Below the pieces are notes generated by a model. That model was not told where the DNA came from and did no database searches. It was given only the letters and a program-made list of their open reading frames with translations. Shown one piece after another: positions 18,746 through 57,665 of a DNA stretch of 64,000 nucleotides. Made by a program: the position numbers and the translations under genes. How positions within the stretch are numbered: the first letter of the stretch is position 1; every line of letters starts with the position of its first letter. Source of the DNA: Aurantimicrobium sp. MWH-Uga1 (GTDB lineage: Bacteria > Actinomycetota > Actinomycetes > Actinomycetales > Microbacteriaceae); NCBI RefSeq assembly GCF_003325955.1, contig NZ_CP030929.1, positions 1,302,001 to 1,366,000 on the forward strand, read 5' to 3'.

Positions 18746-18822
18746 CCTCGCACGCTCTCAGCGAATTCACACCCCAGCCTTAGGTGGGAATAACTCTAGG
18801 GAGTAGACTGTTATCTAGAGCA
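18746..18822 (+). promoter_or_regulatory. Probable promoter region for the riboflavin operon
   Basis: This stretch between trpS and the riboswitch carries TATCTA at 18812-18817, about 7 nt before the aptamer start, which fits a -10 box. No convincing -35 box is visible. I see no hairpin terminator for trpS here. Confidence 0.35.
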
Positions 18823-18961
18823 ACGCGCTTCGGGGTCAGTGAAAATCTGAGCCGGCGGTGAAAGTCCGCGACCCTCATGCAAAAGCCACCCGGCTGGAGG
18901 ATGAGGTTGATTCGGTGAAATTCCGAAACCGACGGTTAAAGTCCGGATGGGAGAACGCGCG
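18823..18961 (+). promoter_or_regulatory. FMN riboswitch (RFN element)
   Basis: The aptamer is recognised by conserved blocks: GCTTCGGGG near 18828, GCCGGCGGTGAAAGTCCGCGACC near 18872-18894, a peripheral arm with GGTGAAATTCCGAAACC, GACGGTTAAAGTCCGGATGGGAGA and the closing CGCGC/GCGCG P1 pairing (18824-18828 with 18957-18961). It binds FMN and represses the following rib genes. Downstream, GGGTAG (18962-18967) can pair with CTACCC (19016-19021), and CTCT at 19031-19034 can pair with AGAG in the ribD ribosome site (19040-19047). This points to translational control, though the switching mode is inferred. Confidence 0.95.
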
Positions 18962-19057
18962 GGGTAGGTGTAGTCAGTGACCCCTGCCCAGTTCGGATGT
19001 CATTTTGGCACCCGTCTACCCGAAGCATGCCTCTAATTCAGAGAGAGCACCCGGTAG

Positions 19058-36464: not shown

Positions 36465-36806
36465 TCATCGAAGCATATTTTTAGGTCCTGCTTTTGCTCG
36501 AGTTTCGATCAAAAACCCCAACACGGTGACCTTCATGGTCACTCGTGCACTGAGGTTATCGACACTGCAGGTTTCAAAATTGAGTTGATGCTTCTGGGCC
36601 AGTCTTTCCGCACGATCACAGGGATATCCCGGGATGCGTCCGGAGGCAGCATCTGCTGCTTCTAATGCCGCCTGGTCGGTAACCGCCTGTGCTCTTTCGT
36701 ACATAACGAGGGCACTTCCGCATACAAATAAAAAACTTGTCACCGAAATCACTCCACTGACCAAAATGAGGGTTGCAGAACTGCTCGAGCCACGATCAGT
36801 GCGCAT
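36465..36806 (-). CDS. TadE/TadG-like pilus-associated protein (Rv3654c type)
   Basis: A 113-residue protein with a short N-terminus (MRTDRGSSSSA), one membrane helix (about 11-35) and an extracellular domain. It matches the pattern called helicase/secretion-neighbourhood TadE-like in actinobacteria, with the helix followed by ERAQAVTDQAALEAAD and two Cys (in YPCDRAE and ETCSVDN) likely to form a disulfide. The start overlaps the tadE gene by 11 nt. It is the last gene of the Tad cluster before topA. Confidence 0.8.
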   Translation of the reverse strand: MRTDRGSSSSATLILVSGVISVTSFLFVCGSALVMYERAQAVTDQAALEAADAASGRIPGYPCDRAERLAQKHQLNFETCSVDNLSARVTMKVTVLGFLIETRAKAGPKNMLR

Positions 36807-37134
36807 CAAGAACACACTCTCGAACACGGATCTGGGGAACGATCCATTCCAGTGGACCTGGCCCAATGTTTTGTTGCAGCGTGACACAAATCACATCGCT
36901 TTCCGCACTTTGACGAAAAAGTGCTTTGCTATTTGCGCTATGTAGTGCTCGCGACACGAGAGCCCCGTCAACACCGCGAGCGAGTTCTTGTGCTGCTTGA
37001 CGAGCTAACGAAGCATTACTGAGCTGAGTGCCCAAAGCCGCGATTGCCTGTAGGCAGATTCCTAGTATCAATATGATGACCGGGAGCACCATGGCTAATT
37101 CCGCGGTGACGCTACCCTCCGAACGTGAGTGCAC
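36796..37134 (-). CDS. tadE: TadE-like pseudopilin
   Basis: A 112-residue protein with EGSVTAELAMVLPV followed by a hydrophobic helix (about 12-35), the TadE-type N-terminus in which Glu follows a small residue. The rest is a short soluble domain with two Cys. The GTG at 37134 is the only usable start; it lies 23 nt inside the flp gene, so the two are translationally coupled. It probably forms part of the pilus tip or assembly machinery; this is inferred from the family. Confidence 0.8.
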   Translation of the reverse strand: MHSRSEGSVTAELAMVLPVIILILGICLQAIAALGTQLSNASLARQAAQELARGVDGALVSRALHSANSKALFRQSAESDVICVTLQQNIGPGPLEWIVPQIRVRECVLDAH

Positions 37135-37381: not shown

Positions 37382-38290
37382 CTAGTACAAGGTTGTGGAG
37401 GAGATAACACTTGCCACCAACGGGAGCACCCCCACAGCAATAAATGCGGGGAGAACGCACACCCCGAGGGGAATCATGAGCTTGACACCTAAACGCTCTA
37501 TGGCTTCATGTGAGGTGCTTCGTGCACGATCGCGCAACAGTTCTGCGTGAGCATGCAGTAGGTCGCTCAAAGCAACACCTGTTCGTGTTGAAAGCTCCAT
37601 AAATTCATCACACTGCTCAAGCTCGACATGATCAGTGAGATAGTCATTAGCTATTTCTTGAGCACACTGACGTGCATGCCTCAATGAGGCCCCGGAGCGT
37701 AAAGCCATCGCCATTACTTCAGTCGGCATTCCATTAGCCCACGTGGTGTGTTCTGCTGTTGCAACGAGCGAGGCAGACCACGTATGTGCAAGCCACATCA
37801 ACCCGGCCGCCACAACAAGCAAAAACCAGCCCACAGGTTGAAACAATAAAAAAGCGAGCGGGTTGTAGCCGGCAGCCATCCCTCCCACAATCGCAATGCC
37901 CGGCAAAATCATGACCAGTTTGGTCGCAGCTTGTGGCCCTGCAAGTTGGCTTCGAGCTTCGCGAGAATTTCGGGATGCGTGAGCAAGCGCATGCGACAGT
38001 GACACAAGTATGTCTTTCAGCGGTGCCCCAAGGTCAATGCCCAATCGCCACACATCTGCGAGGAAAGCCAGCGGTGTAGGTGGTTTATTGGCGAAGAACT
38101 CTTCGCGCTCAACCCGAGCATGCATAAGTGCTTGATGGGGGCTCAGCCCCGCGACGAGCAGCATGGCTAACAGTTGTGAGAGTGCAGCGACCTCACCCAA
38201 ATCGTCACGAGCTGCCGAGGCGGAGCGGCTGAATCTCGAGTGAATGAGAGTTCCGAGCAAATGTGCCCATTTGTGCAATACGTCGACCAT
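37382..38290 (-). CDS. tadC: Tad pilus assembly membrane protein, type II secretion F family (TadB/TadC-like)
   Basis: A 302-residue inner-membrane platform protein. Two hydrophobic pairs lie around residues 122-175 and near the C-terminus (280-300), with a T2SSF domain between (RSGASLRHARQCAQEIAN and ELSTRTGVALSDLL). Typical Tad systems have two such proteins (TadB and TadC); only one is seen here. The ATG at 38290 is chosen because GCGAGGTG lies 5 nt upstream, although it overlaps tadA by 86 nt. A TTG at 38200 just after the tadA stop is an alternative without a clear ribosome site. Confidence 0.82.
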   Translation of the reverse strand: MVDVLHKWAHLLGTLIHSRFSRSASAARDDLGEVAALSQLLAMLLVAGLSPHQALMHARVEREEFFANKPPTPLAFLADVWRLGIDLGAPLKDILVSLSHALAHASRNSREARSQLAGPQAATKLVMILPGIAIVGGMAAGYNPLAFLLFQPVGWFLLVVAAGLMWLAHTWSASLVATAEHTTWANGMPTEVMAMALRSGASLRHARQCAQEIANDYLTDHVELEQCDEFMELSTRTGVALSDLLHAHAELLRDRARSTSHEAIERLGVKLMIPLGVCVLPAFIAVGVLPLVASVISSTTLY

Positions 38291-39128
38291 GTTCACCTCG
38301 CTCCACATGAACAACAAGGTCGACTGCCCCGTGAACCAAGGTTGTGAGCAACGGCTCACTCAAACCAGAGAGGAAACCGAGTGCTCGCAATCGTGTAGGG
38401 ACATCACTCAATGAGTTGGCGTGTAACGTCATCCCGCCACCAGTGTGGCCTGTGTTCAAGGCGCTAAGCACGGCACCGATTTCACTACCGCGACATTCAC
38501 CAAGGACAAGCCGGTCTGCCCGCATACGCAAAGCCTGTGGCACAAGCTGTTCGAGGGTTAGACCACCCACGCCTTCATTATTTGCTTGCCTAGCCTCCAA
38601 AGTGATGACGTGTGGGTGCCGTATGTGTAATTCAGCCACGTCTTCCAACACGAGAATACGCTGGTGTGGATCGGCATCAGATAAAAGGAGGGCCAACAAA
38701 GAGGTCTTCCCTGCACCTGCTGCACCCGTAATTAGAAGTGTCTTTTGTGAGTGCACGGCTGCCTGAAGATACTCATGCTGCTGAAGGCTGAGATAGCCCT
38801 GTTCCAGGAGCTTTTTCCACGTTAGGTCGTGGTGACGAGATATACGAATAGAGATTGCTGTTCCGTGAGCGGCGACCGGAGCGAGCACAGTATGAACACG
38901 AATACCGCCCTCAAGTCGGACGTCAACACAAGGGTGGGCAATATCTAAGTGACGCCCGCCTCGGTCTATTAGCTCAACAGCGAGCGCTCGGACCTCTTTC
39001 TCTGTTGCCTGCCAGCCAGGAACTAGAATGAGGCCCGATCCTTGATCGACCCACATTCCTGCATTACTCGAGATGAGGATGTCAGTGACGAGGGGATTGC
39101 GAATCTGGGTATCCAACAGGGCAAACAT
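38205..39128 (-). CDS. tadA: Tad pilus assembly ATPase (TadA/CpaF, VirB11-like)
   Basis: A 307-residue secretion ATPase that powers pilus assembly. Walker A is GAAGAGKTSL near residue 134, the Asp box is ILVLEDVAELHI, Walker B is LVLGECRGSE, and the His box reads LNTGHTGGGMTLHAN. It is shorter than many CpaF proteins because the N-terminal forkhead-associated or linker part is missing. GAGG lies only 2 nt before the ATG, and TAATTT ends 6 nt upstream, so a leaderless transcript is possible. The 6C-type RNA lies upstream on the same strand. Confidence 0.9.
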   Translation of the reverse strand: MFALLDTQIRNPLVTDILISSNAGMWVDQGSGLILVPGWQATEKEVRALAVELIDRGGRHLDIAHPCVDVRLEGGIRVHTVLAPVAAHGTAISIRISRHHDLTWKKLLEQGYLSLQQHEYLQAAVHSQKTLLITGAAGAGKTSLLALLLSDADPHQRILVLEDVAELHIRHPHVITLEARQANNEGVGGLTLEQLVPQALRMRADRLVLGECRGSEIGAVLSALNTGHTGGGMTLHANSLSDVPTRLRALGFLSGLSEPLLTTLVHGAVDLVVHVERGEHGRRIAQMGTFARNSHSLEIQPLRLGSS

Positions 39129-39250
39129 GGCCTCAAATTAGAGAAAAAATTCATCAGATGAGAATTTTTGGACCAAATTGGGGGTATTTGTACCCCTTTT
39201 GCCCCTGTGGAGGACAGGTCATGTGTATCCGAAAGACCTCACACACAGAG

Positions 39251-39320
39251 GAAGGCGACACCAGTTGGGGGGAACGGTGTCGCCTTCGTGGCGCCAGATT
39301 GGGGGAATCGGCGGCGCCAC
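39251..39320 (-). ncRNA. 6C-type small RNA (two hairpins with C-rich loops)
   Basis: Read on the minus strand there are two adjoining hairpins. The first has an 8-bp stem (39313-39320 with 39288-39295), an inner GATT/AATC pairing and a CCCCC loop (39301-39305). The second has a perfect 12-bp stem (39276-39287 with 39251-39262), an inner GTT/AAC pairing and a CCCCCC loop (39266-39271). Two hairpins with C-runs in the loops define the actinobacterial 6C RNA. In M. tuberculosis the 6C RNA also lies next to the tad genes, as I recall. The ends of the transcript are not determined, and the core is 70 nt. Confidence 0.8.
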
Positions 39321-39399
39321 CAGTCAGATACGAAGCTCTGAACAATATGAGTGTAAGGCATTTTTCTGAAAATATTCTGTACCCCGAGTACAAAAAGTA

Positions 39400-39415
39400 A
39401 CTTTGTATACAAAGT
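39400..39415. promoter_or_regulatory. Perfect 16-bp palindrome upstream of acs, probable operator
   Basis: ACTTTGTATACAAAGT is a perfect palindrome. It ends 13 nt before TAATCT (39429-39434), a possible -10 box for acs, so it would overlap the -35 position. The TTTG...CAAA half-sites recall operators of several acetate or carbon regulators, but the binding protein cannot be named. Confidence 0.5.
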
Positions 39416-39487
39416 GTGATTTTGGGGGTAATCTCGTATCAGACTTTGATAGAACTTTGTCACCACCCAATGAAGTGAGGTGCTCAA

Positions 39488-41443
<1,956 letters not shown>

Positions 41444-57311: not shown

Positions 57312-57375
57312 AGTTCAATAGTACGCGTCAGAGCCGACATCCAGACCACTACGTCAACGCTGTGAGCGCAATAAA

Positions 57376-57470
57376 AAGGACCCCCCGCGCACCCGCCAGA
57401 GCCCGGTTACCCTTGCTACGTTTCCGTCCTGGGGGAGTTGGCCTGGATGGCGCCACGCGAGGAGCCATTC
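57376..57470 (-). ncRNA. ffs: Signal recognition particle RNA (small bacterial 4.5S type)
   Basis: The minus strand contains the conserved SRP apical domain: CCCCCAGGACGGAAACGTAGCAAGG, including the GGAA tetraloop and the asymmetric loop AGCA. The outer stem pairs GGCTCCTCGCG at the 5' end (57466-57456) with CGCGGGGGGTCC at the 3' end. TTTTTATT follows at the 3' end. It guides Ffh to ribosomes making membrane proteins. The neighbourhood (dnaX on one side, tRNA-Ser on the other) matches other actinobacteria. Exact ends are estimated. Confidence 0.85.
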
Positions 57471-57577: not shown

Positions 57578-57665
57578 GGAGGATTCGCCTAGTGGCCTAT
57601 GGCGCACGCTTGGAAAGCGTGTTGGGTTAACGCCCTCGGGGGTTCGAATCCCCCATTCTCCGCCA
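57578..57665 (+). tRNA. tRNA-Ser (anticodon GGA)
   Basis: An 88-nt tRNA with a long variable arm. The acceptor GGAGGAT pairs with ATTCTCC (one G-T), the anticodon loop CTTGGAAAG gives GGA for UCC/UCU codons, the variable arm runs TTGGGTTAACGCCCTC, the T arm contains GGTTCGAATC, the discriminator is G, and CCA is encoded. Confidence 0.96.

Follow-up and report, generated by a model that had tools for sequence, protein, structure and literature searches.

A genuine copy of the 6C RNA, a class already known from actinobacteria, lies upstream of tadA on the minus strand of the 64,000-nucleotide stretch of Aurantimicrobium sp. MWH-Uga1 analyzed here (contig NZ_CP030929.1, positions 1,302,001 to 1,366,000; hereafter the window). 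We observed its structure, the conservation of that structure, the match to the RNA family, the synteny of the locus and a loop of five cytosines. Its transcription, mechanism and targets are what we infer, and we consider it highly probable that the locus encodes a small RNA of ~97 nt with its own promoter, which pairs through its loops with G runs elsewhere and is not the leader of tadA. The earlier note on this DNA, made from its letters alone, had assigned the locus to the 6C class, and this assignment was supported by a match to the whole Rfam model and, across Microbacteriaceae, by structure, covariation and synteny. The adjoining hairpins of the class, whose C-run loops are conserved and whose stems vary, were present, as were an actinobacterial host and a position upstream of the tad/ssd locus, with tadA as the next gene in Aurantimicrobium. 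Of the six or more C typical of both loops in the class, loop 2 has six and loop 1 has five.

The search with the Rfam 6C model that the earlier note had proposed as a check was carried out as a permissive scan of 38900-39700. The core matched over the whole model (RF01066, model 1-75 of 75) at 39247-39321 on the minus strand, which was the strand expected, with 45.3 bits and an E-value of 1.3e-4. The score was 1.7 bits short of the gathering score of 47, which is the curators' threshold and not a biological trait. Therefore, the default scan of the window at the gathering threshold lists no 6C, and reports an FMN riboswitch, two tRNAs and the SRP RNA. No other match to 6C at E ≤10 was found in this 1.61-Mb single-contig genome. 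The comparison set comprised 60 genomes (this one and relatives), of which we take 37 to be the Microbacteriaceae, the family of Aurantimicrobium. Matches to 6C at E ≤1 were found in 36 of the 60, and 31 of these, this genome included, scored under the gathering score. Only five genomes reached the cut-off; scores slightly short of it are the norm in Microbacteriaceae, where a single one of the 37 (G032) passes. We guess that the covariance model may lean to high-GC sequences. Another family, the stress RNA CcsR1 (RF02791) with its conserved CCUCCUCCC, also has hairpins with C-rich loops and gave a weak full-length match. It was rejected on score (31.4 bits, with 65.3 required); moreover, the loop here reads UUCCCCCCAA, whereas the CcsR1 model has CCUCCUCCC.

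The two adjoining hairpins occupy 39251-39320 of the minus strand and carry a C5 and a C6 loop, each closed by UU/AA, on stems of unrelated sequence. The minimum free energy of a 111-nt stretch was -48.3 kcal/mol compared to a mean of -31.5 (sd 3.45) for 200 dinucleotide shuffles (z -4.9), and none of the 200 shuffles equaled it. In the single-sequence fold, hairpin 1 (39288-39320) bears the loop CCCCC at 39301-39305, closed by GAUU/AAUC, and hairpin 2 (39251-39287) bears CCCCCC at 39267-39272, closed by UU/AA (GUU-C6-AAC) and followed by a weak T tract. The stems are not quite uninterrupted, because hairpin 1 has a two-base CC bulge on its 5′ side and hairpin 2 a single U bulge on its 3′ side. 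Thus, the loop design that the earlier note saw in common between two minus-strand hairpins was recovered, with each C run closed by U-U/A-A, and the stems are unrelated as it had said. The perfect pairing of the stems was not confirmed, and no A-bulge side of the loops appeared in the fold, where the only bulges are the CC and the U.

The remark that one loop is C5 and not C6 also held, and it extends to the genus, where loop 1 was C5 in all eight members. In the remaining 20 family sequences loop 1 was C6 in 18. The C runs of loops 1 and 2 were (6,6) in 15 of the 28 family members, (5,6) in eight, which are the genus, (6,5) in three and (5,5) in two. Both loops had runs of 6 to 11 C in 30 class loci viewed. 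Six C per loop is typical of 6C and not strict, the wording in the relevant passage of PMC4046766 being "typically."

An alignment of the acsA-tadA intergenic region from the eight genus members showed that the RNA core and the preceding 22 bases are its most constant stretch; the RNA and its 5′ extension were nearly invariant within the genus, and the flanks varied. The genus sequences were too alike for covariation, and therefore family sequences were added. The resulting set of 28 consisted of 24 copies found by Rfam and four found by a C-run pattern upstream of tadA (G009, G014, G017, and G020), and all 6C matches from other families were left out of the alignment. G009 and G014 had weak Rfam matches away from tadA, and a clear 6C was seen upstream of tadA in both. 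Two C-loop hairpins upstream of tadA were found in 28 of the 37 Microbacteriaceae genomes, which is a lower bound, since in the other nine only 3 kb around one tadA match start was viewed by pattern. At the default Rfam cut-off, almost every 6C RNA of the sampled Microbacteriaceae is thus overlooked: one of 37 genomes passes, and at least 28 carry one. The Rfam matches L027 and L029, which come from other families, showed no two C-loop hairpins by eye and were not used. Separately, two hairpins resembling 6C, with a C6 and a C5 loop, were seen by eye in L053 (G025:C29), ~930 bases before the locus end; they have no TT/AA closing pairs, were found neither by Rfam at E 1 nor by the C-run pattern, and stand outside the 28.

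All 28 sequences formed two C-loop hairpins in single-sequence folds, with the loop-adjacent pairs open in the minimum-free-energy structure of four (L011, L025, L030, and L060). Over the 20 pairs of the lower stem and stem 2, 94.9% of cells were paired in the 28 sequences, compared to 31-57% in slid-alignment controls. Changes on both sides occurred in 13 of the 20 pairs (55 cells), a value that none of 500 shuffles reached, although these shuffles ignore relatedness and eight of the 28 sequences are close kin. L059 and L062, which were misaligned by MAFFT, were kept in the pair counts and dropped only from a listing of eight pairs. In the lower stem of hairpin 1, both partners had changed in six of the seven pairs counted across the family. 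Both closing pairs of loop 1 are able to form in all 28 sequences, and at loop 2 the first closing pair holds in 28 and the second in 26. The loops and closing pairs are constant and the stems vary, which is what a function carried by the loop would predict. The dense non-coding conservation and another 16-bp palindrome nearby might also suggest an element that works only as DNA, namely a pair of inverted repeats serving as a protein-binding site or as a boundary of the tad locus. We regard this as extremely improbable, because G-U replaces G-C in the stems (columns 14/44: 11 GC, 10 GU), which RNA tolerates and which is not expected of a DNA palindrome. Moreover, the constant part is the single-stranded loops.

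The next gene downstream, 119 nt from the 6C core and on the same strand, is tadA, which encodes a TadA-family ATPase (38205-39128, minus strand; TIGR03819, 344 bits with a cut-off of 373, E 7e-103; PF00437). The nearest named relative of this TadA is that of Aurantimicrobium minutum MWH-Mo2, with 59% identity. Past tadA the order of minus-strand genes is a tadB/tadC-like T2SSF membrane protein (37382-38359, profile match), a TadE-like gene (36796-37134; NF041390, 35.4 bits, cut-off 40) and an Rv3654c-like TadE-like gene (36465-36887; TIGR03816, 64.5 bits, cut-off 51), and then a DNA topoisomerase. On the other side of 6C lies the divergent acsA for acetate-CoA ligase (39488-41443, plus strand; TIGR02188, 944 bits). 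Among the 28 family loci, tadA was found by tblastn in 26 and acsA in 23; the two loci without a tblastn tadA are stretches fetched up to the tadA match start.

A class sample of 148 genomes gave 89 6C matches in 86 genomes. A same-strand tadA lay within 8 kb downstream for at least 77 of the 89, counted among tadA matches listed to about E 3e-49 and only in genomes with a 6C match. The distance between 6C and tadA among the listed matches was under 400 nt in four, 1.1-2.5 kb in 71 and ~7 kb in two. The 12 unlinked 6C matches include genomes whose tadA is not among the matches listed or is on another contig, and in one of them (G110) tadA is nearby on the opposite strand. The adjacency to tad genes, which the earlier note gave for M. 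tuberculosis, holds here with tadA as the next gene, and the tad neighborhood is common across the class.

Weinberg et al. in 2007 reportedly placed 6C upstream of chromosome-partitioning-like and pilus genes, and we take Rv3660c to be the ssd gene of the tad locus. The homologue B11 of Mycobacterium lies in the Rv3660-Rv3661 intergenic region, according to a passage of PMC12395582. In a full-text literature search on 6C and pilus, the passages returned from PMC5784534 stated no link between the two. The gene between 6C and tadA, examined by NCBIfam in one case, was Ssd/CpaE (355 bits, cut-off 154). By Pfam, seven intervening proteins, this one included, comprised five without a family and two with ParA-like domains. 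Ssd scored above its cut-off in 11 of 23 genomes from the remaining families of the order, as against none of the 37 Microbacteriaceae. The simplest reading is that Microbacteriaceae lost ssd, or that ssd diverged beyond recognition, and that 6C thus came to lie against tadA. In this order of events, the place of 6C upstream of tad would probably be ancestral, and 6C would have stayed when ssd left the locus. The tie between 6C and the tad pilus locus is class-wide and persists though ssd was not found in Microbacteriaceae.

The 22 bases preceding the core form a 5′ extension, GTTCAGAGCTTCGTATCTGACT (39322-39343, minus strand), which is invariant in all eight genus members. In all eight, six bases separate it from the end of an upstream TAnnnT element (TACACT in six, TAAACT in one, and TATAGT in one). 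On the genus alignment we predict TACACT at 39350-39355, minus strand, as the -10 of the 6C promoter, and the start of the transcript is predicted near 39343 on the basis of this -10 and of the 5′ extension in C. glutamicum. No TTG -35 was present at the usual distance from this -10 in any of the eight genus members. TTG-N17-21-TAnnnT was found upstream of the RNA in 15 of the 20 non-genus family loci, compared to a mean of 1.6 and a maximum of 7 in 1000 single-base shuffles. A consensus scan of 39080-39500 found neither a sigma-70 promoter nor an intrinsic terminator, and the longest T run past hairpin 2 was 2-3 in the genus versus 2-7 in the other 20 loci. At tadA, a candidate -10, TAATTT (39135-39140, minus strand), was read from the genus alignment six bases before the ATG. 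TAnnnT-N6-ATG is kept in all eight genus members while the six intervening bases vary; judging from this layout, the tadA mRNA may be leaderless, with its own promoter at the start codon. The family promoter and the TAnnnT at tadA both point to a separate small RNA. This single 6C gene of the Aurantimicrobium strain would probably be transcribed from its own promoter, TACACT, and would probably not be a leader for tadA, whose own promoter seems to lie at the start codon.

A different arrangement would make the hairpins the 5′ leader of the tad mRNA, starting at ~39343 and running into tadA, with control in cis as in a riboswitch or an attenuator. The shared strand and the short distance to tadA would fit this, as would the same-strand tadA downstream of most listed class matches, the Rfam typing of 6C as Cis-reg and the lack of a terminator found past hairpin 2, where the T tract in the genus is short. 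Since the scan found no terminator or promoter and the T tract is short, some read-through into tadA is possible. We consider a tad leader unlikely all the same, given the TAnnnT before the tadA ATG in the whole genus and a spacer between 6C and tadA that varies more than 6C does. The homologues are also free RNAs. In passages of PMC12395582, the mycobacterial homologue is a free RNA of 93 nt, and the -10 of B11 is TATAGT. Passages of PMC4046766 describe C. glutamicum 6C as a transcript of ~100 nt by Northern, extended by 27 nt at the 5′ end. B11 acts on other genes, and further 6C copies lie elsewhere in mycobacterial chromosomes and on plasmids, as stated in passages of PMC9569102.

As a separate small RNA, the product would be ~97 nt long, with two C-loop hairpins and a 22-nt single-stranded 5′ end. 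Its C5 and C6 loops would probably base-pair to G runs in mRNAs from elsewhere, at the ribosome binding site or close to it, and so block translation, which has been shown for B11 of mycobacteria. Mai et al. in 2019 reportedly dealt with 6C targets. In M. abscessus, B11 can use either of its C loops to repress eccB4 via a six-G tract, as compensatory mutation demonstrated (passages of PMC10470900); for M. marinum, passages of PMC12395582 describe pairing of the terminator loop with G tracts close to ribosome sites. The RNA described here and its homologues B11/6C of Mycobacterium and cgb_03605 of Corynebacterium glutamicum are alike in the adjoining C-loop hairpins, the short 5′ extension, the TAnnnT promoter element (predicted here) and the position upstream of the tad locus. 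The Aurantimicrobium copy is unlike known 6C RNAs in its Rfam score below the gathering score, in a locus without ssd where tadA comes next, and in its short T tract. The loops also differ: loop 1 here has five C and loop 2 six, compared to 6 and 7 in M. abscessus (passage of PMC10470900) and 8 and 8 in C. glutamicum (passage of PMC4046766).

The C5 of loop 1 is common to the whole genus, and it is therefore either tolerated or fitted to its targets. It might instead be taken for the mark of a relic, an RNA weakened by the shortened loop and being lost in these small genomes. Both loops are C5 in two other genomes of the family, and G-tract leaders were not enriched in a 464-kb sample. Passages of PMC10470900 judge a change of loop 1 from C6 to C5 in M. 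abscessus to be possibly hypomorphic, maybe partly impaired; in isolates with this change the complementary motif was absent in most affected genes and the colony form was largely restored. We think decay of this kind quite improbable, as the 6C core and its 5′ extension are the best conserved intergenic part in the eight genomes and the stem changes remain pairable.

Targets of the small RNA were sought in a sample of 464 kb, which consisted of the window and twenty 20-kb stretches, with 400 genes called crudely. Upstream of 396 called genes, G5 runs were no commoner than C5 runs (6 versus 5). Nor were loop-complementary G-run words enriched in the 30 bases upstream of these genes, with 10 6-mers (controls 8 and 8) and three 7-mers (controls 0 and 2). 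Over the whole sample, complementary matches of at least 11 to 6C numbered 16, fewer than the 24 of the reversed-sequence control, and those of at least 13 numbered two, equal to that control; a complement control is the same test as the reversed-sequence control.

One leader stood out. It contains TTGGGGGAATCGGC, which is perfectly complementary over 14 nt to loop 1 with its 5′ flank/inner helix and ends 45 nt before the coding start of a 1202-aa protein (leader at G000:C1 ~1574880-1574955, or L120:14880-14955, minus strand). Four bases ahead of the ATG, the same leader has a G5 run, the presumed ribosome site. The protein has carboxypeptidase-regulatory-like (beta-sandwich) repeats and a hydrophobic N-terminal stretch. 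Three of 200 dinucleotide-shuffled 6C sequences reached a 14-nt match in leaders. For duplexes with loop 1, this leader ranked first of 385 (-28.1 versus -19.3 kcal/mol for the next), and for loop 2 it ranked second of 385 (-21.1 versus -21.3). By whole-molecule duplex energy, a measure that proved uninformative, it was outside the top 12 of 388. The exact 13-base site was found in the 6C gene of all eight genus genomes and otherwise only at the candidate locus in this genome (G000) and in a sister genome (G007). With one mismatch there were 26 matches, eight of them 6C itself, compared to 6 for the reversed pattern, and those viewed besides 6C lay mostly within reading frames.

In G007 the candidate leader (G007:C1:1468960, L140) is identical at 95 of 100 positions, which is only slightly better kept than its surroundings, because the 1.5 kb upstream is 91% identical. 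Past the start codon, DNA similarity between the two genomes ends after 13 bases, and the proteins share 26% identity over 234 residues. The two genomes thus share the leader and 1.5 kb of DNA before it but have dissimilar genes after it, for two different, apparently secreted proteins, which gives the appearance of a cassette-like variable locus.

On sequence grounds, the leader of the 1202-aa protein is a good candidate for a 6C target and is no proof of one. A tentative and somewhat doubtful extension is that the Aurantimicrobium 6C could have become a regulator of this variable, apparently secreted giant protein through the TTGGGGGAATCGGC and G5 sites of its leader. If true, the C5 loop with its GAUU helix would reflect a fit to one target rather than wear of a 6C loop. 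With this finding, a naturally occurring C5 loop and a single testable candidate target are available in a freshwater genus. Other candidates were rejected. That at gatA overlaps the apparent coding end of the preceding gene, and its G5 is absent in one of seven relatives. A pknB-like leader was found in three of seven relatives; G4-G5 is kept in these three and may be a plain ribosome site. The matches ATGGGGGAATCGG and TTGGGGGAATCGT lie inside open reading frames.

Several other elements were observed in the window. A perfect 16-bp palindrome, ACTTTGTATACAAAGT, lies at 39400-39415 between acsA and the 6C promoter. It was present in all eight genus members, in none of the 20 other family loci and once in the 464 kb, and is possibly an operator of acsA or of 6C. 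An octamer, GGGGTACA on the minus strand, lies on either side of 6C (39189-39196 and 39378-39385) and is conserved in the genus alignment. It occurred five times in the 464 kb in either orientation, the two 6C-flanking copies included, and one further copy, as TGTACCCC, is in the predicted target's leader. The idea that these octamers are regulator sites was dropped: at least one copy was at the locus in all eight genus members and in only five of the 20 other family loci. Furthermore, the window contains an FMN riboswitch at 18821-18962 (93.6 bits) and, on the minus strand at 57373-57469, a bacterial small SRP RNA that adjoins a tRNA at 57578-57662.
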